64,000 nt of DNA, taken from contig NZ_BMZE01000001.1 in NCBI RefSeq assembly GCF_014652635.1, positions 425,293-489,292 on the forward strand. The letters run 5' to 3'. Numbering within the stretch: the first letter of the stretch is position 1; every line of letters starts with the position of its first letter. Source of the stretch: Devosia pacifica. GTDB taxonomy: Bacteria; Pseudomonadota; Alphaproteobacteria; Rhizobiales; Devosiaceae. Both the position numbers and the translations under genes were made by a program. Under the pieces are notes generated by a model. The model was not told where the DNA came from, did no database searches, and saw only the letters and a list, made by a program, of their open reading frames with translations. This document shows, piece after piece, positions 51,681-64,000 of this stretch.

Positions 51681-52088
51681 ATGCCCACTTCGATTTTCAT
51701 CAACGTGCCCATTCGGGATCTTGCAGCCTCGATGGCTTACTACAAGGCCCTCGGCTTCGATCACAATCCCCAGTTTACGGACGAGACGGCGGCGTCGATC
51801 GTGATCAGCGACACCATTTACCTGATGGTGCTCACCCACGAGAAGTTCAAACAGTTTTCGCCATTGCCAATCCCTGACCCCAAAGAGCAAACTCAGGCTC
51901 TATACGCCCTGTCCCGCGAAAGCCGCGAAGCTGTTGACGAAATCGCTGATGCGGGCATCGCCGCCGGTGGCACCGAGATACGCGATCCGCAGGACCATGG
52001 ATTCATGTACGTCCGGGCGGTTGCCGATATTGACGGGCATGTCTGGGAATACGTCTACATGGACATGAGCCAGTTTCCCTCCGCATAA
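51681..52088 (+). CDS. VOC-family (glyoxalase-like) protein
   Basis: A 135-residue protein of the vicinal oxygen chelate superfamily, PhnB/lactoylglutathione-lyase-like. FINVPIRDLAASMAYYKALG, a metal-region segment VLTHEKFKQFS, and the final VADIDGHVWEYVYMDMSQF with the conserved Glu are present. cggaggg precedes the ATG. The substrate is unknown. It is the last intact chromosomal gene before the island scar at 52,200. Confidence 0.88.
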   Translation: MPTSIFINVPIRDLAASMAYYKALGFDHNPQFTDETAASIVISDTIYLMVLTHEKFKQFSPLPIPDPKEQTQALYALSRESREAVDEIADAGIAAGGTEIRDPQDHGFMYVRAVADIDGHVWEYVYMDMSQFPSA

Positions 52089-52168: not shown

Positions 52169-52199
52169 CCGGCGCAATCAAGGGAAAGCGGTAGTCTAT

Positions 52200-52249
52200 T
52201 GGAGCGGGTAGCGGGAATCGAACCCGCATATTCAGCTTGGAAGGCTGCT
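52200..52249 (-). other. 3' fragment of tRNA-Gly(TCC), likely attachment site
   Basis: On the minus strand 52249-52200 reads as the 3' part of tRNA-Gly. The anticodon is TCC at 52239-52241 (plus-strand gga), followed by a variable loop, a T-arm built on GCGGGTTCGATTCCCGC (52211-52227), the acceptor TACCCGC and T-CCA at 52200-52203. The 5' half, the D-arm and the acceptor partner are missing; matching stops at the 5' side of the anticodon stem. This is the usual product of tyrosine-integrase insertion into a tRNA 3' end. Confidence 0.85.
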
Positions 52250-52352
52250 AGGTAGTCAATGATTTCAATGACGTGTTCCAACTAAAATGAGCGCCGATCT
52301 GCTATTGGTCGGCGCCCGTTCACCGTTGTTCCAGTTCCTCAGGCCGCGGTTT

Positions 52353-52703
52353 TCAGGCTGCCCTTTGCTCGGTTACCAGCTGCACGATGGCTTCAATTGG
52401 ATCACCCGCCGGGCCGTGATGTGTCATGTCCCGAATAAGCAACCGTAGACGCCGATCCTCATCAGCGCGCTCAGAAAAACGCCGAATCCTGAGTGCTCCC
52501 ATCAGTTCATCTAGAACGGACGCGCACCAACCCTCGCCCAGTTCGACGATGAAGTCAGCGCCGGCGTAGTACTGTGAGCCATCATACGCGCGTGGCTGGT
52601 TCTGGAGCCACAGAGCTGCCTCTGCCACCTGGCGGATACCATCATAGGCAAGCTCGAAGTCGAGGATCGACCAGTCGGTCATATCGAGAGATTCGGGCGT
52701 CAT
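52353..52703 (-). CDS. Hypothetical protein
   Basis: A 116-residue acidic protein with no recognised family. It contains LAYDGIRQVAEAALWLQNQP and LDELMGALRIRRFSERADED, mainly helical, and ends near IVQLVTEQRAA. Its start overlaps the stop of the next upstream minus-strand gene as ATGA, so it is part of a four-gene run with the antirepressor-like gene. Confidence 0.6.
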   Translation of the reverse strand: MTPESLDMTDWSILDFELAYDGIRQVAEAALWLQNQPRAYDGSQYYAGADFIVELGEGWCASVLDELMGALRIRRFSERADEDRRLRLLIRDMTHHGPAGDPIEAIVQLVTEQRAA

Positions 52704-52936
52704 GCTGTGCCCTCACTTCCACGGAGAGAAAGGGGCATCGACCGCTTCAGGCGTTCGAGCCCCTTCGGCGTCACCAGAATGCGCGTCCCCCTCCCCATTG
52801 AGCCATCGGGGTATTGCAACACAACATCCTGATTGATCATGAAGCCTGCGCGAACTGCCTTGCGGCCGGCGCGGTGGTGATAGTTCTCGCCGTCGGTGAG
52901 GCCGACACCATCAAAGGTCACAACGATCGTTTCCAC
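52700..52936 (-). CDS. Small hypothetical protein, GTG start
   Basis: A 78-residue protein with GTG start at 52936 preceded by gggaggt and overlapping the stop of the ORF6N gene by one base (TAGTG). The frame is open upstream to 52993, but that part lies inside the neighbouring gene. It contains YPDGSMGRGTRILVTPKGLE, a segment like the beta-wing of phage antirepressor C-terminal domains, and ends in basic residues. The resemblance is weak. Confidence 0.6.
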   Translation of the reverse strand: METIVVTFDGVGLTDGENYHHRAGRKAVRAGFMINQDVVLQYPDGSMGRGTRILVTPKGLERLKRSMPLSLRGSEGTA

Positions 52937-53778
52937 TATACGACCTCCCGAGCGACCAATTCGCGAACAATGGTGATCATGCTGGTCGGCCATTTCAGCT
53001 GACGGGCGGAGCCGGTGACGTCATGGGCCCGCTGCACCACGACCATCGTACCGCCATGCTGCTCACCCTTGGGCGTCGGCACCCAGTACGGCTTCCCCTT
53101 CTTGGTGCGCTTGCCCTCCTGAAAGCCATGGACCTGGAGAAGGTGGTTGACCTCGACGGCGTTGAGGCCGACCTCCTTGCCGATATCGGACGGGACGATG
53201 AGCGCGTCCTTCTGAGGCGCGATGACGTGCCGCTGGCCCATCGCCTCGAGCGTGTCGAAGCCGGTGGCACGCGCCGTCGCCTGATTGGCAGCGATGGCAG
53301 CTTCAGCGCCCTTGAGCCCGATCAGCGCCGCCATCTTGAGGTTCTGCGCGAACTGGAGACGGTGTTCTCGTGCGGCGCGGTAATCGCTGAAGTCGAGAGT
53401 GCCGGACCGCGCCTGCTCCACCATGAAGTAGCGGTCGACCATCTCGCCTTGCACCTTCCATGCCCGATCATCGTTCATGGGCTTGACCAGTTTGAGGTAA
53501 CCGCGGCGAGTCAACAGGATGATCGGCTTGCGGTTGCCGCCCTTGGTCCGACGCACTACGTCGGACGAAAATGCATCGTACGGCGCTTCGACGAAGTCTT
53601 CGCCTTCGACAAAGCGCTCACGGTTTTCGCGAAAGGTTCTTCCCGCCGTTCCATCGACTCGTTGATGCACCCGGTCGACTATCGCGAATGTCACGACCGG
53701 CTCACCGCGATAGGCGATCTGACGCACCGTGGTACCGACGATTGCAATTTCGTGCAGATTGCCCTTATATTCAGGCAT
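52936..53778 (-). CDS. ORF6N-domain phage antirepressor-like protein
   Basis: A 280-residue protein whose N-terminal half fits the ORF6N (KilA-N-like) DNA-binding domain. VRQIAYRGEPVVTFAIVDRV, then RTFRENRERFVEGEDFVEAP and ILLTRRGYLKLVKPMNDDRA are typical of prophage antirepressors. The middle is helical, and the C-terminal part (DIGKEVGLNAVEVNHLLQVH, GFQEGKRTKKGKPYWVPTPK) resembles the KilAC second DNA-binding module. The ATG at 53778 has ggagg 5 bases upstream; the open frame continues but without signals. It overlaps the upstream ribbon-helix-helix gene by 8 bp. Confidence 0.85.
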   Translation of the reverse strand: MPEYKGNLHEIAIVGTTVRQIAYRGEPVVTFAIVDRVHQRVDGTAGRTFRENRERFVEGEDFVEAPYDAFSSDVVRRTKGGNRKPIILLTRRGYLKLVKPMNDDRAWKVQGEMVDRYFMVEQARSGTLDFSDYRAAREHRLQFAQNLKMAALIGLKGAEAAIAANQATARATGFDTLEAMGQRHVIAPQKDALIVPSDIGKEVGLNAVEVNHLLQVHGFQEGKRTKKGKPYWVPTPKGEQHGGTMVVVQRAHDVTGSARQLKWPTSMITIVRELVAREVV

Positions 53779-54025
53779 CATTTCCTCCATCCATTTCCGT
53801 GGGGTGGTTATGATCATGGCTCGGCGAGATTGCAGTCTCGGCCGGGCCTTTCTCGTTCTTGGCGTCAGCTTGGTAACGACCCTCGCGAACAAGGTGTCGG
53901 ATAGCGGCGCTCCGAGAAGTCATCCCCAACGCCACACCAACTCTGTCAATCTTCTGTAGTTCTGACTGGTCGAAGAGGACTACCACTCGACAGGGCTTCG
54001 GGCGGTTCCTTCGATATGCAAGCAT
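53771..54025 (-). CDS. Ribbon-helix-helix protein
   Basis: An 84-residue protein starting at 54025 with aagggt 7 bases upstream. RVVVLFDQSELQKIDRVGVA forms the beta strand and first helix, and MTSRSAAIRHLVREG the second helix, of an RHH DNA-binding fold. The tail is acidic, rich in Asn and His. It is first in a minus-strand run with the ORF6N gene and is divergent from a second RHH-like gene, a typical regulatory layout. Confidence 0.75.
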   Translation of the reverse strand: MLAYRRNRPKPCRVVVLFDQSELQKIDRVGVALGMTSRSAAIRHLVREGRYQADAKNEKGPAETAISPSHDHNHPTEMDGGNDA

Positions 54026-54131
54026 TCTGTTACCCTTAATGTGACAACGATTGTGACATTGCTCGTGCAATGGATCATTGTCAAGCAGGCGGCTACCACT
54101 GCCCACACCTGCGGTACAAATGGAGGGAACA
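54026..54131. promoter_or_regulatory. Divergent control region between two RHH genes
   Basis: The 106-bp gap contains tgtgacaa (54040-54047) and tgtgaca (54052-54058) as direct repeats 12 bp apart, plus ttgtca (54078-54083) in reverse orientation. RHH repressors bind short repeated half sites of this kind. Binding here is inference, and no consensus promoter was assigned. Confidence 0.4.
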
Positions 54132-54659
54132 ATGGTTGATGATGATGAGGGCGGCCAAAAGCAGCCGGTGAAGGGTCGGCTTAAAGCTCAGGAAGGAATT
54201 CCCTATCCGCCCTCGCCGCCAGCACCTGTCGAAACGCAGCGCCGGGTTTACGCTCTGCCCGCCGACCTTGTAGAGCGGATAGTCGAGTACCAGAGGGAGA
54301 AGGGTTATCCTTCTGAGGTTGAAGCAGTTCGCCGGCTTCTCGACGACGCGTTGAAATCTCGGGATACCTTAGAGCGAATCATCAGCCGATTTTTGACTAG
54401 GCTGGGCGCTCAGCGAAGTGCTGTCGAAGTGTCACGGGACATCCTCGTCGGGCACCCGCTGGTCGGGTCCATGTCTTTCGAAGAAGATAAAGTCGACTTT
54501 TGGATGAAGGACGGTTGGAACGTTAAAATATCGGACGATGGGACAGTTCTGGTTTGGCCTCCAGGGGAAGCCAGCAAGCGCGGCGGTTTGGCTTGGTCGT
54601 GGGTGCCTGACGACGACAAATTCGGTCCCGGCACTATCACTGACGACATACCTTTCTAG
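54132..54659 (+). CDS. Ribbon-helix-helix-like protein with C-terminal domain
   Basis: A 175-residue protein with start at 54132 and ggaggg 5 bases upstream. A proline-rich N-terminus precedes RRVYALPADLVERIVEYQRE and YPSEVEAVRRLLDDALKSRD, which fit a ribbon-helix-helix domain at about residues 37-78. The remaining 95 residues (FWMKDGWNVKISDDGTVLVW) are beta-rich and of unknown function. It is divergent from another RHH gene. Confidence 0.65.
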   Translation: MVDDDEGGQKQPVKGRLKAQEGIPYPPSPPAPVETQRRVYALPADLVERIVEYQREKGYPSEVEAVRRLLDDALKSRDTLERIISRFLTRLGAQRSAVEVSRDILVGHPLVGSMSFEEDKVDFWMKDGWNVKISDDGTVLVWPPGEASKRGGLAWSWVPDDDKFGPGTITDDIPF

Positions 54660-54852
54660 GACGATAGCAGAAGTGAGCACCTCTTGCGCCCCTGACGCAT
54701 CCGCGCGATCCTGCCGGCCAGGAAAGGAGCCATGTAGCCGTCAGCCACTATCTGGACCAGCGCACCGAGGTGAAGGGACGGACTGCAACGCAGGCTCTCT
54801 CGCTGTGGCGCAAGACCGCCAAGTACAGCGGGAACTGAAATAGGACAGTAGC

Positions 54853-55299
54853 GTGAGAGACATCGTCGAAGGACCGGACGGCCCCGAGGGGTCTGAGCCC
54901 ATCGAGTTCTCGGAGTACGGTGTCCGCTTCGCGCTCCTCACCGAAGATGGCGACGTCGAGGACTTGGAGGACCACTACACGCTCGACATGTTCGGAGGCG
55001 TCCTGCCCAGCGTCGGCGATATCAAGGTCATGCTCTGGCCGCGCCGAGACCCCGGCGATGAAGACGCCTTTGAGGTCGTCCGGCGCTACTATGTCGGCGA
55101 GTTCAACGGTGACAACTGCTGGTGGATCCTGGTCAAGGCGGTGAAGCCAGGACCGACAGAATTGAAGCTGTTCGACATTACCCGTGCGGCATCTATCGAG
55201 AGCAAGCGTCAGAAGGTTGAGTTCATGAACAACAGCTATGAAGACCTGAAGCGTCTCCGCGAAGAATTGGACAAGCGCAAGAAGACGAAGAAGCGTTGA
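54853..55299 (+). CDS. Hypothetical protein, GTG start
   Basis: A 148-residue protein starting at GTG 54853 with aggaca upstream (weak). The first half is acidic (FALLTEDGDVEDLEDHYTLD, a beta-rich region), then VVRRYYVGEFNGDNCWWILV, and the last 30 residues are a basic coiled helix (LKRLREELDKRKKTKKR). No family is recognised. Confidence 0.6.
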   Translation: MRDIVEGPDGPEGSEPIEFSEYGVRFALLTEDGDVEDLEDHYTLDMFGGVLPSVGDIKVMLWPRRDPGDEDAFEVVRRYYVGEFNGDNCWWILVKAVKPGPTELKLFDITRAASIESKRQKVEFMNNSYEDLKRLREELDKRKKTKKR

Positions 55300-55317
55300 T
55301 GAGGCGCGGCTCGCGTC

Positions 55318-55524
55318 CTACTTCGAACTCTGCCACTCCTTGATCTGTTCGCAGAGCCCCCACACGAATGAGTGCGCGAACAACTCCTCCTCAGATCCAT
55401 CCGGAGTAAACGTGTAGATCGCGTCATTGATGTCGGACCAAGTGCCCAGATACTCGCCATCGGCGGTAAGGACCGAACCGTCATCCATTAGGTTGATCTC
55501 GAACTGCATCTTCGGTTGTTTCAT
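55318..55524 (-). CDS. Small hypothetical protein
   Basis: A 68-residue acidic protein. The ATG at 55524 gives MKQPKMQFEINLMDDGSVLT with ggaagg about 9 bases upstream. YLGTWSDINDAIYTFTPDGS and a C-terminal SFVWGLCEQIKEWQSSK look like a small alpha/beta domain. No family is recognised. It is convergent with the gene at 54853. Confidence 0.55.
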   Translation of the reverse strand: MKQPKMQFEINLMDDGSVLTADGEYLGTWSDINDAIYTFTPDGSEEELFAHSFVWGLCEQIKEWQSSK

Positions 55525-55556
55525 CCTCGCATCCTTCCGCCCTTCTAGACTCCCGG

Positions 55557-55793
55557 AATGCAACAATCTCCGAAACCGAGATTGATATCGATCGCCCCTA
55601 CCGCCTCAAAGACATTCTGCCATTGGCTTATCCGGGCGGCGAACTGACGGTGAACAGTCTGCGACTCGAGATCCGTCGAGGCAACCTAGAAGCCGAGTAT
55701 GTTGCCGGGCGGCTTTACGTAACTATGCGGGTAATTCGGGAGAAGCGGCAGCGGTGCCGAAATACTGACAGGGTCAAGGGAGTACCTCGCTGA
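55557..55793 (+). pseudogene. Start-less helix-turn-helix/excisionase-like remnant
   Basis: The frame reads ATISETEIDIDRPYRLKDIL, then LAYPGGELTVNSLRLEIRRG and NLEAEYVAGRLYVTMRVIRE before a stop at 55791. This resembles short helix-turn-helix proteins found beside integrases in alphaproteobacterial islands and prophages. No ATG, GTG or TTG precedes the conserved part in frame, and many relatives run on past R-Q-R-C-R. It therefore looks truncated at the 5' end, perhaps at both ends. Confidence 0.6.
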
Positions 55794-55845
55794 GCTTCAG
55801 ACGGACATTCTACGCGTCGCGATTTGTCGGCAATGACGATAAAGC

Positions 55846-56022
55846 TTAGCGGTCGGTCCTAACCTTCAGCTGATAGGGATCGTTTCCGTATGTCCACTCG
55901 GTCCTGAACTTGTTGTCCCTGCCTTGGACAAGAACTTGAGGGTCGTGCCCATTGCGACCTGCCTCGTGCGCAACATCCACAGCAGATTTTATGCGAGTGC
56001 TCGCGTATTGTGCGGTCCGCAA
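55846..56022 (-). pseudogene. DUF2188-like remnant
   Basis: The minus strand encodes RIKSAVDVAHEAGRNGHDP, then QVLVQGRDNKFRTEWTYGND ending P-Y-Q-L-K-V before a stop. The pattern helix, then Val-x-Val/Leu-x-Gly-Arg-Asp and a late Tyr-Gly-Asn-Asp-Pro is that of the small DUF2188 family. Upstream a stop at 56029-56031 removes the usual N-terminal strands; only a TTG at 56022 could start it (58 residues). It is more likely a fragment than a gene. Confidence 0.5.
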
Positions 56023-56188
56023 CGCTGCCTATTGAAGCTGATTTTCCGTTGCCCCTAACCCTGTCGCACCTTCACTGCGCAAACGGGGTGGATAGCTTCC
56101 AAACCGCTTCAGGTCGCGGAGCGCTGAAAGCATATCCTACACCAGCGCGATCTCCTAGTATAACGGCCATGATGGAGTTTGCTCAACG

Positions 56189-56218
56189 TTGATCTATCGA
56201 TCGAGCACTGACTATATT
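56189..56218 (+). promoter_or_regulatory. Candidate promoter for the restriction-modification gene
   Basis: TTGATC (56189-56194) and TATATT (56213-56218) are 18 bases apart, 75 bp before the first ATG of the large gene. The rest of the 55,794-56,292 interval shows only the DUF2188-like remnant. The match to consensus is fair. Confidence 0.4.
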
Positions 56219-56292
56219 TTGTTTTTCGACACCGTCGCTAACGCATAGATGAAGCGAATGCGAACGACTGCCGTTAGTACTGGATTCGCTAC

Positions 56293-59200
56293 ATGCCGTT
56301 ATTCCATCCCCGTGCAATCACAAAAAAGCTGCGGAATATGGGTCCGATCCCAGCCACCCATGCGACTATCCTTTCAGCGTGGAGTCAGAGTCTTTCGGAC
56401 GGTGTGTACGACCGAGAGACGTCGAACGATGGCGAATTTATTCAGCGCATTCTAGTCGATACCCTCGGCTATTCCGGCAGCAGTGCGGGGCCGACTTGGA
56501 CCGTTGCGAAGAACCAGCCGGTCGGGACAGGGAACGTCGACGTAGCCCTCGGCCGGTTCGGGGCCGGAATAGATCCGAAGATCCTGGCACCGTTCGAGCT
56601 GAAGGGCGCCCGGATGAAGGATCTGGACGCCATGATGTCAGGGAGGAATAAGTCCCCCGTCCAGCAGGCGTGGGAATACGCAATGGACGCGAAGGGTGCC
56701 CAGTGGGTCATTGTTTCCAACTATCGCCAGATTCGCCTCTACGCCGTGGGATACGGACGAAAGGACTACGAAGCCTTCGATTTGGCTACGATGACGCGGC
56801 CGGAGAACTACCACCGCTTCATGCTGCTCCTGTCGGCCGAAAACTTGCTGTCCGGCGCGACGCTTGACCTCCTGAAGGAGAGTGATGCGACACAGAAGGA
56901 GATCACGAAGCAGCTCTACGCGGAGTACAAGAAGATCCGAACCGAACTGATTGAGGAAATCAGGTCATCGGATCCGGCCATCAAGTCGCTTTCGGCCGTC
57001 CGTATGGCGCAGACCATCCTGGATCGGGTGCTGTTCATCGCCTTCGCGGAGGATCGTGGACTGCTTCGGAAGGAAAGTTTGAAGGAAGCCTTCGAGACGA
57101 AGAACCCCTACAGCCCCCAGCCGGCTTGGGAGAACTTCAAAGGCCTCTTCAACTCGATCGACCAGGGCAACGAACGCCTCGGTATCCCCGGCTACAACGG
57201 CGGTCTCTTCGCGAAGGACGAAGACATCAACGCCCTCGCGATAAGCGAGAAAATGTGCGCCCGTTTTGCCGCCATGGGCGACTACGACTACGACAGTGAG
57301 GTGTCGGTCAACATCCTCGGCCACGTCTTCGAGCAGTCGATCTCCGACATCGAGGACCTGAAGAAGGAGCTCGACCCCGACTCCGCGCCTCCGCCTGAGG
57401 TCGGCTCGAAGCGGCGGACAGACGGCATCTTCTACACCCCGCCATTCATCACTCGCCACATCGTCGAGCAGACGGTCGGACGCTGGCTCGCCGAGAGGAA
57501 GGCGGAGCTCGGCTTCGACAAACTGGCGCCGCTCGCGGACGCCGACTACGCGTCCATCAGGATCCCAACGAGGGGTCGGAAGGTATCGAAGGTTGTTTTC
57601 AACGAGAACATCCGGAAGCACGTCGCCATCTGGGAGGCCTATAGGGACCGGTTATCGACGATTCGCGTCGTGGATCCCGCGTGCGGCTCAGGCGCCTTCC
57701 TGAATGAGGTCTTCGACCTACTGTACCGCGAGGGACAGACGATCAATCGGACGCTGGAGACCCTGTACGGGGGCCAGATCAACCTCTTCCGATGGGACAC
57801 ACATATTCTTGCAAATAACGTCTACGGCGTGGACATTAACAGCGAGTCCGTAGAGATCACCAAGCTCTCCCTGTGGCTGAAAACCGCCAACCGCAACGAG
57901 AAGCTCAGTTACCTCGATGACAACATCAAGACGGGAAACTCCCTCATCGACGACGCGTCTGTCGTAGGCGACAACGCTTTCGACTGGGAAGTTGAGTTTG
58001 AGGAGATCATGGAGGACGGAGGGTTCGATGTGGTGGTCGGCAATCCCCCCTACGTCGACTCGGAAGCGATGGTGAAGGCATGGACCCGCGAACGCGAGTT
58101 CATCACCCAGACCTACTCGCAGACTAGGGGGAACTGGGACCTGTACATCGCCTTCCTAGAGCTCGGCTGCGACCTGATGGCTCCCGGCGGCTACCTCTCC
58201 TACATCACGCCCGACAAGTGGATCTCGAAGGACTTCGGCACCGCGATGCGCAAGCGTATTGTGCCGGGTATCCTGTCGATTCTGCCGGTCGGTCGCGACG
58301 TCTTCGAGAGCGCGCTAGTGGATTCAATCATCACGACGATAGGCGATAAGCCGTCGGACGAGTTGCAGATCCACGATCTGATCGACGGCGAGATCGTAGT
58401 TTCCGGAAGAATTCCAAAGGCTGAACTCAATGGTGAGGATGGGTTCGACCGTCTTCTCTCCGTGCATCATGCCTTCCTGCGCAAGTTGGACAAAAAAGCC
58501 GCGAAGCGGCTCGGCGAGCTCGCGGAGACCGAGAACGCTTGCGCCACAGCCGACACGTACACCCTCGGCGGGATCATAGAGGACGCGGAATCCGTACATG
58601 GCTACGACCCGGCAAAGGACTACAGAATCGCCAACACCGGGACGCTCGACAAGTACGTCTTCCGTTGGGGCGCGAAGCCAATGCGCTACCTCAAGAACGA
58701 CTACGAGTTCCCGATCGTCTCGAAAGCATCGTTCCGGGAGACTCTCGGCGCCACATACAATCGGCGGGCGGCATCGCCCAAGATCGTCATCAAGGGACTG
58801 ACCCTCCTAGACGGAGCGATCGATCTCGACGGCTCCTACGTGCCCGGCAAGACCACGCTGGTGATCTGTTCAGACGACCTCGTCCTACTGAAGTGCCTGG
58901 CCGGCATTGTGAACAGCCAGATTGCGTCGTTCTACGTGAAGCAGAAGTACGCCAGCGCCAGCTACAACGGCGGCGTCAACTTCACCTCGGACATGATAAA
59001 CTCGATCCCAGTTCCGAAGGGGATCAAGAAGCCTGTGATCGCTGCGCTTGTCGACCGCATTGTGGCTGGCCGGTCGAAGTTCGTGGAGACCACAGCCTCG
59101 TTGCATTCCCTGCTCCGGGCATCGGGCGGTGCGGCAAAGCTCGGGCGGAAGCTCGACGCGTGGCATGAACTGTCATCAGCAGAATTCCTTGCCGAGATAG

Positions 59201-59382
59201 TGAAGCGCGGTGTCCACGTCCCGATAAAGGAACGTCCGCAGTGGCTGGACGTCTTCGCCCGCCATAAAGCCCGAGTAGCCAAGGTCATGGCTTCCGCTGA
59301 CGCCGCCGAGGCCGAGATCGACGAGACGCTGGCCACGGCATTTGGGCTCAGCCAAACAGAACGTGACATTATCGGCATCTAG
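56293..59382 (+). CDS. Type IIG restriction-modification enzyme (Eco57I-like N6-adenine methylase with N-terminal nuclease)
   Basis: A 1029-residue single-chain enzyme. Near the N-terminus Asp83 (NVDVAL) and Glu102-x-Lys104 (PFELKGA) form a PD-(D/E)XK nuclease site. A helical linker follows. Methylase motif I is VVDPACGSGAFLNEVF (about 459-474) and motif IV is VVVGNPPYVD (NPPY at 584-587), marking N6-adenine methylation. The last third, with F-T-S-D-M-I-N-S-I-P-V-P, is the TaqI-like specificity domain. No separate R, M or S gene adjoins it. The start is uncertain: 56293 or a methionine 15 codons later, neither with a clear ribosome binding site. The frame is complete and looks functional. Confidence 0.88.
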   Translation: MPLFHPRAITKKLRNMGPIPATHATILSAWSQSLSDGVYDRETSNDGEFIQRILVDTLGYSGSSAGPTWTVAKNQPVGTGNVDVALGRFGAGIDPKILAPFELKGARMKDLDAMMSGRNKSPVQQAWEYAMDAKGAQWVIVSNYRQIRLYAVGYGRKDYEAFDLATMTRPENYHRFMLLLSAENLLSGATLDLLKESDATQKEITKQLYAEYKKIRTELIEEIRSSDPAIKSLSAVRMAQTILDRVLFIAFAEDRGLLRKESLKEAFETKNPYSPQPAWENFKGLFNSIDQGNERLGIPGYNGGLFAKDEDINALAISEKMCARFAAMGDYDYDSEVSVNILGHVFEQSISDIEDLKKELDPDSAPPPEVGSKRRTDGIFYTPPFITRHIVEQTVGRWLAERKAELGFDKLAPLADADYASIRIPTRGRKVSKVVFNENIRKHVAIWEAYRDRLSTIRVVDPACGSGAFLNEVFDLLYREGQTINRTLETLYGGQINLFRWDTHILANNVYGVDINSESVEITKLSLWLKTANRNEKLSYLDDNIKTGNSLIDDASVVGDNAFDWEVEFEEIMEDGGFDVVVGNPPYVDSEAMVKAWTREREFITQTYSQTRGNWDLYIAFLELGCDLMAPGGYLSYITPDKWISKDFGTAMRKRIVPGILSILPVGRDVFESALVDSIITTIGDKPSDELQIHDLIDGEIVVSGRIPKAELNGEDGFDRLLSVHHAFLRKLDKKAAKRLGELAETENACATADTYTLGGIIEDAESVHGYDPAKDYRIANTGTLDKYVFRWGAKPMRYLKNDYEFPIVSKASFRETLGATYNRRAASPKIVIKGLTLLDGAIDLDGSYVPGKTTLVICSDDLVLLKCLAGIVNSQIASFYVKQKYASASYNGGVNFTSDMINSIPVPKGIKKPVIAALVDRIVAGRSKFVETTASLHSLLRASGGAAKLGRKLDAWHELSSAEFLAEIVKRGVHVPIKERPQWLDVFARHKARVAKVMASADAAEAEIDETLATAFGLSQTERDIIGI

Positions 59383-59582
59383 GCCTTATGTCACTCCGCC
59401 CCGCGCCGCCCCGCATCCTCGAACGACCGGTTCAGGAGTGACAGGCGAAATCATTATATGTAGAGCTCAGGAAATGTTCCCACTCGCCATCCACATTGGC
59501 AATGCTGCAAAGTGGTCAGAAGTGGGAACGGGTCCTGCCTGCAACTGGCTAGGGGCATTGAGGCGGTGCTATATCGTCGAGC

Positions 59583-59993
59583 ATGAAGCGAACAGCCATC
59601 CTCTTGTTGAGCGCCCTCCTCGCCCTGCCCGCTCAAGCCATAGAGAAGTGCCGACCGGGACAACCAAACACCGCAGATAAAACCTGCGTTGTTGACGGCG
59701 ACACGCTCTGGCTCAATGGCGAAAATATCAGGCTGAAGGACTTCGACACTCCGGAGCCGATGACGAACATCTGTGGTGGTGCTCAAGAGAAGGCACTGGC
59801 AGAGCAAGCCAGCAATCGCCTGGTTGAGTTGCTCAACGGCTATGAGTGGACGATTGAGACAGGCGGCACCGGCAACTACGGCAGGACGCTCGGCACGATT
59901 CGGATCGGCGGCCGCGACGTTGGCGATATCCTGATCAGCGAAGGACTGGCGCGCAGGTGGCCGGATGGTGAGGAGTGGTGGTGCAGTGAGTGA
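59583..59993 (+). CDS. Exported thermonuclease-family (SNase-like) protein
   Basis: A 136-residue protein with a signal peptide (M-K-R-T, hydrophobic core, cleavage after P-A-Q-A near residue 18). The body is a staphylococcal nuclease-like OB fold: CVVDGDTLWLNGENIRLKDF followed by D-T-P-E, and NYGRTLGTIRIGGRDVGDIL holds the second active arginine region. R-L-K, D-x-D and E residues match the calcium site only partly. It overlaps the next gene by a few bases. Confidence 0.88.
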   Translation: MKRTAILLLSALLALPAQAIEKCRPGQPNTADKTCVVDGDTLWLNGENIRLKDFDTPEPMTNICGGAQEKALAEQASNRLVELLNGYEWTIETGGTGNYGRTLGTIRIGGRDVGDILISEGLARRWPDGEEWWCSE

Positions 59994-60921
59994 GAGTCGG
60001 CAAAACCCGGCTCACAAGCATCACTATATTCCGGCGTTCTACCTCAAGCGATGGGCCACCGGGGTCGACGGAAAGTTAACTGAATTTAGGAGGGTGCATG
60101 GCAATCGGATCGCTGTGCGCCGCGCTCATCCCAATGCTACCGGCTTCATGGATCGACTTTACGAACTGCAGCATGTTGAACCCGCCGCCGCGAGCATCCT
60201 TGAGACGCACTTTTTCGCCCCGATCGACAACGCCGCTTCGGATGCGCTGGATCTCCTAGATCAACCCAATATCTGGGAAGGAAACTGGACCGCCCGCAGA
60301 ACCTCTGCGTGGTCGCGATTTATTTATTCTCTCTTGGTGCGATCTCCAGAAGATGTCGCCGTATTTCGCCGAGAGTGGCCGCGAGAGATTAGGCAGATAG
60401 ATGCCGCTGACGAAGAGGACTATAAGGAGCATGCGCCTCCTGGCTTTGATGGGTCGATCTTGGACCTAATAGACAGCATGACGGAGCGCGAACACGAGCT
60501 ATCCATGGCACAGGTGTTCGCCTACTGCATTGACAGTTCTCGTGTGGCACAAGAGATTAATAACCTTCATTGGTCGGTTTATAACAACTTTTCCGACCGA
60601 ACGTTTCTGACTTCCGATCGACCGGTCATCCGGACGGCGGCTTTGCTGCGCAAGGGCGGTCACCTTCTGCTCCCTATCGGCCCGCGGAAGCTATTTCTGG
60701 CGGCCACCGACGACACGATGGCGGCAGGACTTTCGAAGGTAAGGCCGCGAGACCTAGTAGCATATGTGAATCAGGCGGTGACTGAGGGTGCGGCTAACTA
60801 CGTCTACGCCGTCGATGAGCGTCAAAGTCGATTCATTCACAACAGATTCGGCAAGACCCCACAGCCCCGACTAATCGAAGCCGTCTTCGCCACCCGCCGC
60901 GAGCGGTCTTTGACTGGATGA
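59986..60921 (+). CDS. DUF4238-domain protein
   Basis: A 311-residue protein with the DUF4238 hallmark HKHHYIPAFYLKRWA at about residues 10-24 and a later SDRPVIRTAALLRKGGHLLL and PIGPRKLFLAATDD. The GTG at 59986 lies within the last bases of the thermonuclease gene; an ATG 7 codons upstream is the alternative. The family is widespread in accessory regions and uncharacterised as far as I know. It shares an ATGA overlap with the next gene, so the three are probably one transcript. Confidence 0.85.
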   Translation: MSESRQNPAHKHHYIPAFYLKRWATGVDGKLTEFRRVHGNRIAVRRAHPNATGFMDRLYELQHVEPAAASILETHFFAPIDNAASDALDLLDQPNIWEGNWTARRTSAWSRFIYSLLVRSPEDVAVFRREWPREIRQIDAADEEDYKEHAPPGFDGSILDLIDSMTEREHELSMAQVFAYCIDSSRVAQEINNLHWSVYNNFSDRTFLTSDRPVIRTAALLRKGGHLLLPIGPRKLFLAATDDTMAAGLSKVRPRDLVAYVNQAVTEGAANYVYAVDERQSRFIHNRFGKTPQPRLIEAVFATRRERSLTG

Positions 60922-61385
60922 CCCTGCCCCGCCTCCCCTGGCAACGCTCCACCTCTGGCGACTGGTTCGTCGCCTATCCCGACGATCACCCGGATCATGC
61001 CGCAACAGTCCGGCACATGCCGCAGGCTGTCGGGCAGGAGAAATGGCAATGGAGCGTGTTCTGGGAAGGACGCTTCGGTGAGTTCGGCATGGCAGCCGAT
61101 CGTCAGGCCGCAGCGGATGCAGCAACCGAAGCATGGCATCGGCTCATCGAGACGACAAAGGTGCCGAGGGATGTGGTGGGAGAGATCGATGCGATGCTCG
61201 ACAGGCTCTCTCAACGGATCCCGGCCGGGCTGCTTGAGGAAGACACCGAATATCTGCACAAGGTGCTGAACCAGATCCGAGTGAGGTGGGAAACAGCAAT
61301 TAGGCTCGATCGCATGGAGCCGAACATCAAGCGCCTTATGGAGGCGGTGTCGGCGGAACTGTATCGACGGCGCACCGGTATATGA
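60918..61385 (+). CDS. Hypothetical protein
   Basis: A 155-residue protein, start overlapping the DUF4238 stop by 4 bp. It opens with WQRSTSGDWFVAYPDDHPDH, contains VFWEGRFGEFGMAADRQAAA and ends in a helical stretch finishing AVSAELYRRRTGI. The last 28 bp are repeated with two changes about 790 bp downstream. The N-terminal half looks like a small beta sheet with a helix. No family is recognised. Confidence 0.65.
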   Translation: MTLPRLPWQRSTSGDWFVAYPDDHPDHAATVRHMPQAVGQEKWQWSVFWEGRFGEFGMAADRQAAADAATEAWHRLIETTKVPRDVVGEIDAMLDRLSQRIPAGLLEEDTEYLHKVLNQIRVRWETAIRLDRMEPNIKRLMEAVSAELYRRRTGI

Positions 61386-62170
61386 AGTTCTCAGAGACGC
61401 AACTCAGCATCACAGGATAAAACCGGCACCTCAGAAGCCCACTTGCGTTTGTCGGCGTAGAAAAATTCGTGTGGAGTTTGCCAGCATGCAATGGTTGTCG
61501 AGTAATACTGAGCTGCTCAATCTCGCAGCAAATTGGGGGATGCTGTTTATCTGGGTGGCCTACCTTCATTTGTTCCTGCAAAGCTACAGACGGCAGACCC
61601 GATCGAAGATCCTGATCAACCGCGGCGCCAGCGGCGGACTAGATGCTCGGTGCCTGATCAGCAACATGAGTTCTGATGCGATTTACGTCGAGAGCATTAT
61701 AGCGACGCTGGAGGCCGGTGACCGGCGATGGAGTGCCTCAGTCACAGCGCGCGAACTGTCGGACGACAGCGCTCGGCCCAACGACCCAAGAGAGTTGACG
61801 TTTCAAGGTCCGCTGGGCGCGGGAGACTATCTGGACGCCGGCGCATACGGCGAACTGCTCGATAGGGCACTAGACAAGGACAGAGGGCAATCGGCGGAAA
61901 CCTTGCGCCGCCTAGAATCGCCGGTTACCGCACAAATCGACGTCTTTGCCGACTACGCGTCCGAAGATCTCATGATCGGTGCAAGACGGCGCTTCAATCT
62001 TGTGGAGCACGAGGGCGTTTGGCAGCTGCGACCGCAACGCATGCAAACGCAACAGATTCGGTCGAAGTCCGAGCGGGCTAGGATCGCTGATCAACTGGCA
62101 GCAGACTAAGGTTGAAAAGCGGCCTGACCCCTTCACAGCGCCGTCGGCGGAGCTGTATCGACGGCGGACC
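61349..62170 (+). repeat. 28-bp direct repeat pair flanking the membrane-protein gene
   Basis: The unit at 61349-61376 and the unit at 62143-62170 agree at 26 of 28 positions (core gtcggcgga and ctgtatcgacggcg). The first is the coding end of the 155-residue protein; the second is untranslated but reads SAELYRRRTN before a stop. The pair brackets about 770 bp holding one gene. It could be a duplication scar or a recombination site. Confidence 0.7.
61486..62109 (+). CDS. Membrane-anchored hypothetical protein
   Basis: A 207-residue protein starting at ATG 61486 (a GTG five codons earlier is possible). One membrane segment, LLNLAANWGMLFIWVAYLHLF, near the N-terminus is followed by a cytosolic beta-rich domain beginning SKILINRGASGGLDARCLIS. 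The pattern resembles a small family I recall from other proteobacteria as hypothetical proteins; no function is known. It lies between the two 28-bp repeats. Confidence 0.65.
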   Translation: MQWLSSNTELLNLAANWGMLFIWVAYLHLFLQSYRRQTRSKILINRGASGGLDARCLISNMSSDAIYVESIIATLEAGDRRWSASVTARELSDDSARPNDPRELTFQGPLGAGDYLDAGAYGELLDRALDKDRGQSAETLRRLESPVTAQIDVFADYASEDLMIGARRRFNLVEHEGVWQLRPQRMQTQQIRSKSERARIADQLAAD

Positions 62171-62226
62171 AACGGACGGTAAGAAGCAATAGGCAACGCA
62201 TTGCGGCACAATCGCAGGAGGTAACC

Positions 62227-62583
62227 ATGCTACGCATAGGTTCAATCGTTTGGGGAGTCGACGATGTCCCACGGGCCATCGCATTCTGGTGTGAGGCCCT
62301 CGACTACCGGCCACTGCGGGAGCCAGATGTTGACTGGGCTATTCTAGTGCCTTGCAATGGTGCCGGCGTGCAGATTGCCATAGATCAGGCTGATGTCAGA
62401 GCTTCCAGGGAGCGCCCGCGCCACCATCTCGATCTTTATGCCAAGAACCAACAGGCCGAGGTCGAAAGACTGATCGCACTTGGGGCGACGCGTGTGGAGA
62501 GAGATTATCCGGAAGACGCTGACTACGTTGTTTTGGCGGATCCCGATGGAAATCGGTTCTGTGTAATTCAGAAGCAAGTATAG
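62227..62583 (+). CDS. VOC-family (glyoxalase-like) protein
   Basis: A 118-residue protein with a caggagg ribosome binding site 6 bases upstream. It has IGSIVWGVDDVPRAIAFWCE, a metal-like HHLDLYAKNQQAEVERLIAL and the closing VLADPDGNRFCVIQKQV, the usual C-terminal Asp-Pro-x-Gly-Asn-x-Phe-Cys. Similar to bleomycin-resistance or dioxygenase-like proteins; the ligand is unknown. Confidence 0.88.
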   Translation: MLRIGSIVWGVDDVPRAIAFWCEALDYRPLREPDVDWAILVPCNGAGVQIAIDQADVRASRERPRHHLDLYAKNQQAEVERLIALGATRVERDYPEDADYVVLADPDGNRFCVIQKQV

Positions 62584-62893
62584 GCACATCCGTCGCGGAT
62601 CGATCGGACCGGAATAGCTTGGTCCGGCTCCGTGTCAAGCCTTCCGACGGCTCTTCTGCCCTGTGCCTAGTGCAGCGCTGTTTTCAGCCCCCTACCCACG
62701 CTCTGCGCGATATCTACTCGTTGCGCGCTGACAAACGGATGGCGGTGGAATTTGAATGGCGGCACGCGGGCAGTGAGCCAGCTCCAACCCTTGCCGAGAA
62801 TTAATCCCTAGGACAGATCGTCGTTAGATCGCAAGCAATAGCCTGATGCTGCGGTCGCTTGAGGCCGCGATCACTAAGCTCAGGACAAAATCA

Positions 62894-63070
62894 ATGTCGC
62901 ACGCACAAAAGCATGACCACGATCTCGGTTTTACACACGACCTTCACAAGATGATTGGACGCAGGCGGTTGCTATCGATCATGGGGGGACTAGGGCTGGC
63001 TTCTGGCTTGGGGCTGCCAGCGATGGCGCTCGATTTCGTGGCGTTGCCATGGGAAACCGCTGGTCCATAT
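62894..63070 (+). pseudogene. 5' fragment of an intradiol ring-cleavage dioxygenase-like gene
   Basis: Codons from 62894 read MSHAQKHDHDLGFTHDLHKM and MIGRRRLLSIMGGLGLASGL (a twin-arginine-like leader) and end DFVALPWETAGPY. This is the N-terminal start of secreted protocatechuate-dioxygenase-like proteins, whose conserved continuation after E-T-A-G-P-Y is missing. Beyond about 63,070 the DNA matches the opposite strand of a phage gene, so the reading frame runs on only as nonsense to 63,241. Confidence 0.75.
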
Positions 63071-63863
63071 CGCGCTCGCCCTCGCGCTTGCACGTGTCAT
63101 TGGCTTCTCTCGCCTCATCGGCATCGGCCATCACGTCACGCGCCAAATTGTCAGCCTCGACACCCTCGGCGCCGAACTTTAGCGTCTCGGTCACGAACTG
63201 GGCCGACTTGCGGTCGAACCATTTTGCAGAGCCAGACTTGAACGCCCGCCGTGGCGCACGAGGGGTGATGTCCCAACTGATGACATTCTGCCCGACGATG
63301 CCGAGGACAGCACCGACAGACTCAGCGCCACGTTTCGCCAGCACCGCTCGATCGCCTCGGATCTTGAAGGTGCCGCCGAGCTTCTTCGCCATGCGGTTGC
63401 CGAGCGCCAGAAAGCTCTCACCTTCGGCTGACCAGTAGTCGCGAACGATCCCTGCAAAGTCCGGATCGATGTTGATCGTCATGCCGGCATGCCCGGCTGC
63501 GCGACTGAGGAACGCCTCGAGGCTGGCATCATCCATGTGAAAGCCCTGCGGCTCCTTCACCTTGCCGGTCGAGTCGAACCCCTTGGCACGGATTTTCAAC
63601 ACCCTGCCGGCACTGCGCGAGCCGCTCGATTGCGGCTGCTCGATAAAGCCCTCGAACACCTTGCCGCCTTCGAGAAAAACCATCAGCCGATCGCCCTTGT
63701 TGGGCAGGCGCACCTGGCCATCGGTGTCGTCGATCGTCAGGCTGCAGGTGTCAGACGAGGTGCCGTCGCGGTCCTCGATCTCTATGTCGATCAGCACTGG
63801 GCGCCAAGCCGAAGTGAGGTCACGGCCATTGATCAGCACGCGCCACGAAACGGTCCACGCCAT
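62979..63863 (-). pseudogene. Phage late control gene D (baseplate hub) protein, 3'-truncated
   Basis: The frame opens with AWTVSWRVLINGRDLTSAWR, then IDIEIEDRDGTSSDTCSLTI and GDRLMVFLEGGKVFEGFIEQ, features of gpD/VgrG-like hub proteins. Phage-like sequence runs to about 63,071 (ANDTCKREGE region, about residue 264). The last 30 codons read antisense through the dioxygenase fragment, so the native C-terminus is lost. The ATG at 63863 overlaps the tail X stop as TGATG. A full gpD is longer than the 264 native residues left here. Confidence 0.8.
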
Positions 63864-64000
63864 CACGCGTCTCCGAACAGCGAAAGAACCTTGCGCGAGC
63901 GCTGCGCGGTCTCGAGCGGCGGCTCAGGCAGCGTCACGACGGTGCCGAGTGGAAGCACGGGGCCGAGTGCAGCAAGGCCGGGGTTGAGAGTGAGCGCAGC
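63863..64000 (-). CDS. Phage tail protein X (partial, runs off window)
   Basis: The minus strand from the window edge reads LTLNPGLAALGPVLPLGTVV then TLPEPPLETAQRSRKVLSLF before TGA. N-P-G-L-A-x-x-G-P-x-L-P-x-G-T is the LysM-like C-terminal signature of gpX tail proteins. Only 45 codons are visible; the start lies beyond 64,000. The X-D order is that of P2-like and many transposable or temperate phage tail modules. Confidence 0.8.
   Translation of the reverse strand, partial: AALTLNPGLAALGPVLPLGTVVTLPEPPLETAQRSRKVLSLFGDA

Follow-up and report, generated by a model that had tools for sequence, protein, structure and literature searches.

A tRNA-Gly(TCC) fragment in Devosia pacifica as the probable left end of a 51-kb prophage whose integrase departs from the catalytic consensus

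The window studied here, a stretch of 64,000 nucleotides of Devosia pacifica DNA (positions 425,293 to 489,292 of contig C1), contains a piece of a tRNA-Gly(TCC) gene that is broken off in its anticodon arm, which raises the question of why part of a tRNA gene stands at this place. The initial annotation, made from the letters of the window, took the fragment for one end of an island inserted by an integrase into a tRNA 3' end, and predicted that an intact tRNA-Gly(TCC) and an integrase gene would be present to the right of the window.

The fragment and its intact counterpart

Read on the minus strand, positions 52249-52200 give AGCAGCCTTCCAAGCTGAATATGCGGGTTCGATTCCCGCTACCCGCTCCA, with the CCA end at window 52200, which bears out the description of the fragment as running from the anticodon stem to CCA without a 5' half. 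Comparison of the fragment with its source genome (4.02 Mb in 9 contigs, 99.98% complete, 43 tRNA hits) revealed one other exact copy, and the third and last match was tRNA-Gly(CCC), at 78%. The exact repeat proved slightly longer than the 52200-52249 first marked: it covers 52197-52249 (minus strand), from the anticodon stem through CCA plus 3 bases, and is identical at 53 of 53 positions to C1:528752-528804, the two copies forming 53-bp direct repeats beyond which similarity drops off on both sides of each. In a genome of 4.0 Mb, an exact repeat of 53 bases goes far beyond what chance would give. As the missing 5' half would lead one to expect, no tRNA was called at 52197-52249 by ARAGORN or by Rfam at the gathering threshold; a permissive Rfam scan of the fragment picked up a T-arm-like stretch alone, through the tmRNA model and two plastid models.

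The second copy of the repeat is contained in an intact tRNA-Gly(TCC) gene on the minus strand of the same contig (C1:528755-528828; window frame 103463-103536), and the distance from copy to copy is 51,263 bp. Adjoining the 3' end of this tRNA, inside the interval, is a tyrosine-integrase gene (int; C1:527496-528671) that ends 83 bp from the tRNA and consists of a 401-aa open frame, with 391 aa from the chosen start, without stops. Both predictions thus came true, and the lack of a matching intact tRNA in the genome, which had been named as grounds for giving up the idea, does not apply. Directly upstream of int is a small frame of 104 aa, with a similar-looking frame (by eye) in another genome of the genus, G080; it matched nothing in PHROGs or NCBIfam and gave only weak, sub-threshold Pfam matches, and to call it an excision factor would be a guess from position.

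Integration into a tRNA gene, with the gene rebuilt at the other end, is a common route for bacterial viruses and a textbook mechanism. We conclude that the fragment is almost certainly the left attachment site (attL) of a prophage of about 51 kb integrated in tRNA-Gly(TCC), the intact tRNA being the right site (attR); the 53-bp duplication, the intact tRNA, int and the phage genes between the repeats support the proposed insertion into a tRNA 3' end. A lambda-type tyrosine integrase would have recombined a phage attP, which included a tRNA-Gly(TCC) 3' half of its own, with the host tRNA-Gly(TCC) gene (attB), presumably exchanging strands within the 7-bp anticodon loop. The phage 3' half would now complete a working tRNA at attR, with the host promoter and 5' half to the right and the phage int to the left, while the host's own 3' half would have been pushed 51.3 kb to the left and left over as the fragment in the window. 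The arrangement suggests one integration event rather than several.

Gene content between the repeats

The 3' end of the fragment was said to point towards the core genome, and the genes on the left are indeed without phage character by reading of their sequences. Its broken side, as had been noted, looks onto phage- and restriction-type genes. The window holds the left 11.75 kb of the prophage (52250-64000), which continues to C1:528751 (window frame 103459), the end marked by int and the intact tRNA. In this part we recognised an ORF6N anti-repressor-like protein (52936-53778, minus strand; PF10543, 7.6e-10; PHROG anti-repressor, 7.9e-24), a type IIG restriction-modification-like protein with an Eco57I/MmeI-type methylase, regarded as cargo (56293-59382, plus; PF07669, 9.7e-42; PADLOC REase_MTase_IIG, 5.6e-111), a staphylococcal-nuclease-like protein (59583-59993, plus; PF00565, 1.1e-7; PHROG endonuclease, 2.6e-16), a DUF4238 protein (59965-60921, plus; PF14022, 1e-32) and a glyoxalase-like protein (62227-62583, plus; PF18029, 6.7e-24). 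The leftmost structural gene recognised is a phage tail protein at 62979-63866 on the minus strand (PHROG_52 tail protein, 2.3e-34, on the 294-aa frame C1:488271-489155). Just outside the left prophage end, a gene at 51681-52088 was read by inspection as a member of the same superfamily as the glyoxalase-like protein.

A simple gene caller, which missed or shortened some frames, placed 58 genes including int between the repeats; 39 distinct element frames were scanned in at least one library, about one third of the called genes being outside the scan. Read from int to the left, the products recognised include ParB-like, helicase, primase, tail completion, terminase, head maturation protease and decoration proteins together with the major head protein and with baseplate, tail fibre, sheath, head closure, tape measure and tail proteins. 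One block unites the genes for terminase, major head protein, sheath, tape measure and baseplate, as in a contractile-tailed prophage. Two further genes inside the prophage are cargo: one for a GAF-EAL protein resembling c-di-GMP phosphodiesterases (C1:490090-491283; L005:91-1283), on the opposite strand to the surrounding tail genes, and one for a protein with RTX calcium-binding repeats (C1:515646-516476; L006:5647-6477).

The left 10.5 kb differs from the rest, with mixed gene orientation, many proteins without a family match and a G+C content of 58.0% vs 61.3% in the structural block. These features would suit a composite in which the true prophage boundary lies more to the right and the 10 kb at the left, with cargo such as the restriction-modification and DUF4238 genes, arrived in a separate event. 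We consider this unlikely, as the left stretch includes the anti-repressor and the phage-type nuclease, and the fragment has as its immediate neighbour an element typical of attP: a 15-mer, CATTGAAATCATTGA (52256-52270, minus strand), which occurs once in the window and in 0 of 100 shuffles. The same 15-mer is found at a similar place beside the half-tRNA in 3 of 8 attP-like TCC sites of viral contigs (L082, L122 and L124; see below), indicating that one att system accounts for the left boundary as well. Candidate arm sites formed by the hexamer GTTCCA on the attL side (52275-52280 and 52328-52333) were rejected as not beyond chance, the 3.1-kb attL locus containing 3 copies vs 1.43 expected and 35 of 200 shuffles reaching 3.

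The gaps between the simple gene calls and the failure to recognise a lysis gene among the 39 element proteins scanned would suit a defective prophage, no longer able to excise or to form particles, a reading to which we give appreciable weight while holding it to be the less probable one; the two att cores have kept full identity over 53 bp, int is open over its 391 aa, and the principal head and tail genes read as long open frames.

The genus neighbourhood and sibling insertions

Comparison with related genomes that lack the insert had been suggested as a check, and it succeeded in part: a filled/empty pair was obtained for a sibling of the integrase, but the empty site of this genome itself was not found among genomes of the genus. 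A search with its joined flanks found no empty site in 60 relatives, and in 74 other genus genomes (E up to 1e-55) no match covered both flanks. Thirty-one of the 74 matched the query, each only within positions 183-608, i.e., the gene to the left of the fragment. That the two flanks are joined in none of the 74 speaks against our explanation. The gene left of the fragment sits elsewhere in relatives, and the neighbourhood of the tRNA is rearranged in the genus: among 35 relatives, comparison of the flank proteins around tRNA-Gly(TCC) revealed no conserved right flank, and int was beside the tRNA in none. None of these 35 had a second copy of the tRNA 3' end in the stretch compared, which extended up to about 10 kb to each side of the tRNA and, for three relatives, less than 3 kb on the 3' side; a copy lying past a larger insert would have escaped notice.

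Other tRNA genes offered some orientation. In 18 of the 35 relatives tRNA-Trp lies within about 10 kb of tRNA-Gly(TCC), and in 5 of the 18 (G001, G004, G020, G030 and G034, by reading) it is on the same strand and on the 3' side; here it is 6.9 kb to the left of the fragment, a placing that matches these relatives, so the left side is plausibly the old neighbourhood. tRNA-Tyr is within about 10 kb in 30 of the 35 but 51.5 kb to the right here, indicating that the right flank is not the ancestral one, a further point against our explanation. The 51.5 kb between tRNA-Gly(TCC) and tRNA-Tyr (C1:528829-580286; L007, L067 and L068), to the right of the window, is possibly a second acquired block or the product of a right-side rearrangement. 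Signs of a second tRNA-marked element were sought in the fetched parts of C1:415000-584999, the window being covered from C1:470000 rightwards, and no fragments of tRNA-Tyr or tRNA-Trp were found besides the genes. A scan of C1:528830-584999 for integrases with the classical boxes also gave nothing, the motif being wrong for this branch.

A relative of int was found, at E up to 0.001, in one other of 75 genus genomes, G080 (62% identity), where 72 bp separate its end from an intact tRNA-Gly(TCC) and another contig carries a truncated copy of the tRNA. The genome G016 is near-identical to G080 around the tRNA (99.80% over 9,959 bp on the tRNA side and 99.61% over 1,552 bp on the fragment side), has no insert and represents the empty site; the two matching sides of G080, whose ends are on separate contigs, meet inside the G016 tRNA. 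G080 and G016 are therefore a clean filled/empty pair, for the sibling integrase and not for the window's own element. Beside its int, G080 has two genes, of 408 and 330 aa, that belong to PHROG families of unknown function (L077:642-2742, G080:C55); they differ from the genes found here, and the int module may thus be common to unlike phages. tRNA-Gly(TCC) likewise adjoins two further int relatives, one in Aureimonas sp. AU4 (75% identity in the part recovered) and the other in an IMG/VR contig (61%). The AU4 assembly also contains a degenerate tRNA-Gly 3' end (L075, G099:C98:6461-6505; 82% to the query), perhaps a decayed attL or the relic of an older insertion.

Of 50,697 phage records, only 4 contain a related integrase; three of these proteins are annotated as hypothetical and the fourth as a tyrosine-type recombinase. 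When IMG/VR was scanned with the family alignment, 312 relatives came up, and the 80 best were retained. Among these best 80 of 312, an intact tRNA follows int in 24, always on the opposite strand and 59-152 bp after the matched region; 32 end too soon, and 24 have sequence but no intact tRNA. Forty-four of the best 80 are closer relatives (44% identity or more), 27 of them with enough sequence, and in 25 of these 27 a tRNA-Gly or its 3' half stands just after int (tRNA-Gly(TCC) in 14, tRNA-Gly(CCC) in 1, the 3' half only in 10, neither in 2). The two with neither tRNA nor fragment, L111 and L123, count against our explanation; their matched stretches contain stops. The ten half-tRNAs, with 0-3 mismatches in 46 for nine and 7 for L121, look like attP or like junctions of tandem prophages. 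Near-duplicate contigs are apparent (L088 to L090; L083 is the contig of L030), and the counts are of loci, not of independent events. The 36 more distant relatives among the best 80 gave a tRNA in 9 (3 Arg(ACG), 2 Arg(CCT), 2 Leu(TAA) and 2 Gly(CCC)), a contig too short in 15 and none in 12, half-tRNAs having been sought here with two Gly sequences only.

These observations also bear on whether the fragment might be the relic of a tRNA duplication or chromosomal rearrangement with no relation to the phage genes next to it. The rearranged tRNA neighbourhood and the missing empty site would fit such an origin, which we nevertheless regard as extremely improbable: the two repeats enclose a block that has int at one end and the phage-arm element at the other, the same arrangement and its empty counterpart exist for the sibling integrase, and attP-like half-tRNAs adjoin int in viral contigs. 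The same truncated fragment at this place in island-free relatives had been put forward as an observation that would tell against an insertion, and none of 19 loci carrying the left-flank gene (about 1.5 kb on each side) has a tRNA-Gly fragment, the best match having 16 mismatches in 40.

The integrase branch, its att sites and known systems

Int matched the PHROG_1 integrase family over residues 260-380 (E 3.8e-12), gave no Pfam match up to E 0.01, the cut-off of PF00589 not being reached, and matched none of the NCBIfam models; four members of the branch scanned with NCBIfam gave no match in any. PF00589 was weakly matched by five int relatives and above the cut-off in one of the five. A structure was modelled with a viral relative (70% identity to int) in the lead together with 36 viral sequences (mean pLDDT 87.7, pTM 0.65). 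Its best structural match was lambda Int (1z19_B; Z 20.3, rmsd 3.4, 271 aligned), and comparison with 1z1b_A covered residues 2-387 at an rmsd of 15.1, i.e., with the domains placed differently. The model, made for the relative, thus points to the lambda-Int fold expected of a tyrosine recombinase. The columns of R224, R338, H361 and Y370 are invariant in 7 of 7 sequences and the matching columns in 36 of 36, R224 as the putative first catalytic Arg being chosen by our reading of the alignment.

At the position of the HxxR histidine, int has Met335 and its relatives have M or R. Among 83 integrases (80 viral, plus those of the source genome, G080 and AU4) this residue is M in 63 and R in 18, and the remaining two, missed by the regular expression, show M when their letters are read directly; since the collection was seeded partly with a pattern requiring M or R there, the lack of His is in part a product of the selection. 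Three phage proteins found without this seed have M, R and M, the G080 integrase, found by protein search, has M, and in a profile alignment the His of PDB 3nkh falls on Met335 (E 0.0017). Since KxxR and YxxR variants are described in PMC8371274, a residue other than His does not exclude membership of the tyrosine recombinase family. A classical HxLR...H...Y regular expression detected no integrase in 36 genomes scanned around the tRNA, our own included, a scan that is uninformative because the motif is wrong for this branch.

Four kinds of att site are seen in the integrase family, namely attL, attR, the empty site and attP-like sites. In two attL and eight attP-like TCC sites, identity to the tRNA sets in 2-7 bases before the anticodon loop, on its 5' side. 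This loop, CTTCCAA between AGC and GCT, is built like a 7-bp overlap with inverted core sites on either side. As a general point, tyrosine integrases require identity across the overlap (PMC8371274). As identity starts just before the anticodon loop, we infer that crossover takes place within these 7 bp. Three GTTCCA hexamers in tandem lie between int and the tRNA (C1:528682-528708; shuffles give an expectation of 0), and GTTTCA or GTGTCA recurs with the same spacing (by eye) in G080, AU4 and the IMG/VR contig, suggesting arm repeats that the integrase would bind.

The mechanism of the prophage is standard. Its integrase branch, largely missed by profile libraries and off the catalytic consensus, is less usual; limited searches of the literature found no description of it. 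We somewhat favour the reading that the branch is widespread, mostly unannotated, works without the HxxR His and cuts in the anticodon loop, with sub-branches tied to particular tRNAs: Met in the branch using Gly-TCC and less often Gly-CCC, versus Met or Arg in the rest, with Arg-ACG, Arg-CCT and Leu-TAA. A short fragment has thus led to a precisely bounded 51-kb prophage with its far end, target gene and integrase identified, and to an integrase branch that common profile libraries largely overlook. With natural attB, attP-like, attL and attR sites available, both the chemistry without the usual histidine and the choice of tRNA are directly testable.

Islander-type islands (PMC4383910) have an intact tRNA at one end and, at the other, a displaced 3' fragment that points the same way, with an integrase inside; 3760 cases have a 3' fragment and 159 a 5' fragment. 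The present element has the same layout and the usual kind of fragment: the intact tRNA and its cognate fragment are on the same replicon and both on the minus strand, the 3' fragment is to the left, i.e., on the downstream side, and int lies in between, while the uninterrupted site in a relative comes from G016 for the sibling G080 and was not found for this genome. We see no difference in principle from Islander islands and prophages. The closest terminase in the phage collection is that of Paracoccus phage vB_PyeM_Pyei1 (43.8% over 97%), which is not among the four phage records with a related int. The integrase would resemble that of lambda in the modelled fold of its 70%-identical relative and in having tandem arm-type repeats beside the core; it differs in its sequence (13-15% identity), in Met or Arg at the HxxR histidine and in its target, the anticodon arm of a tRNA. 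It shares a different residue at this histidine with the SSV1-type (KxxR) and pNOB8-type (YxxR) integrases (PMC8371274), but unlike them it has MxxR or RxxR, in phages of bacteria.
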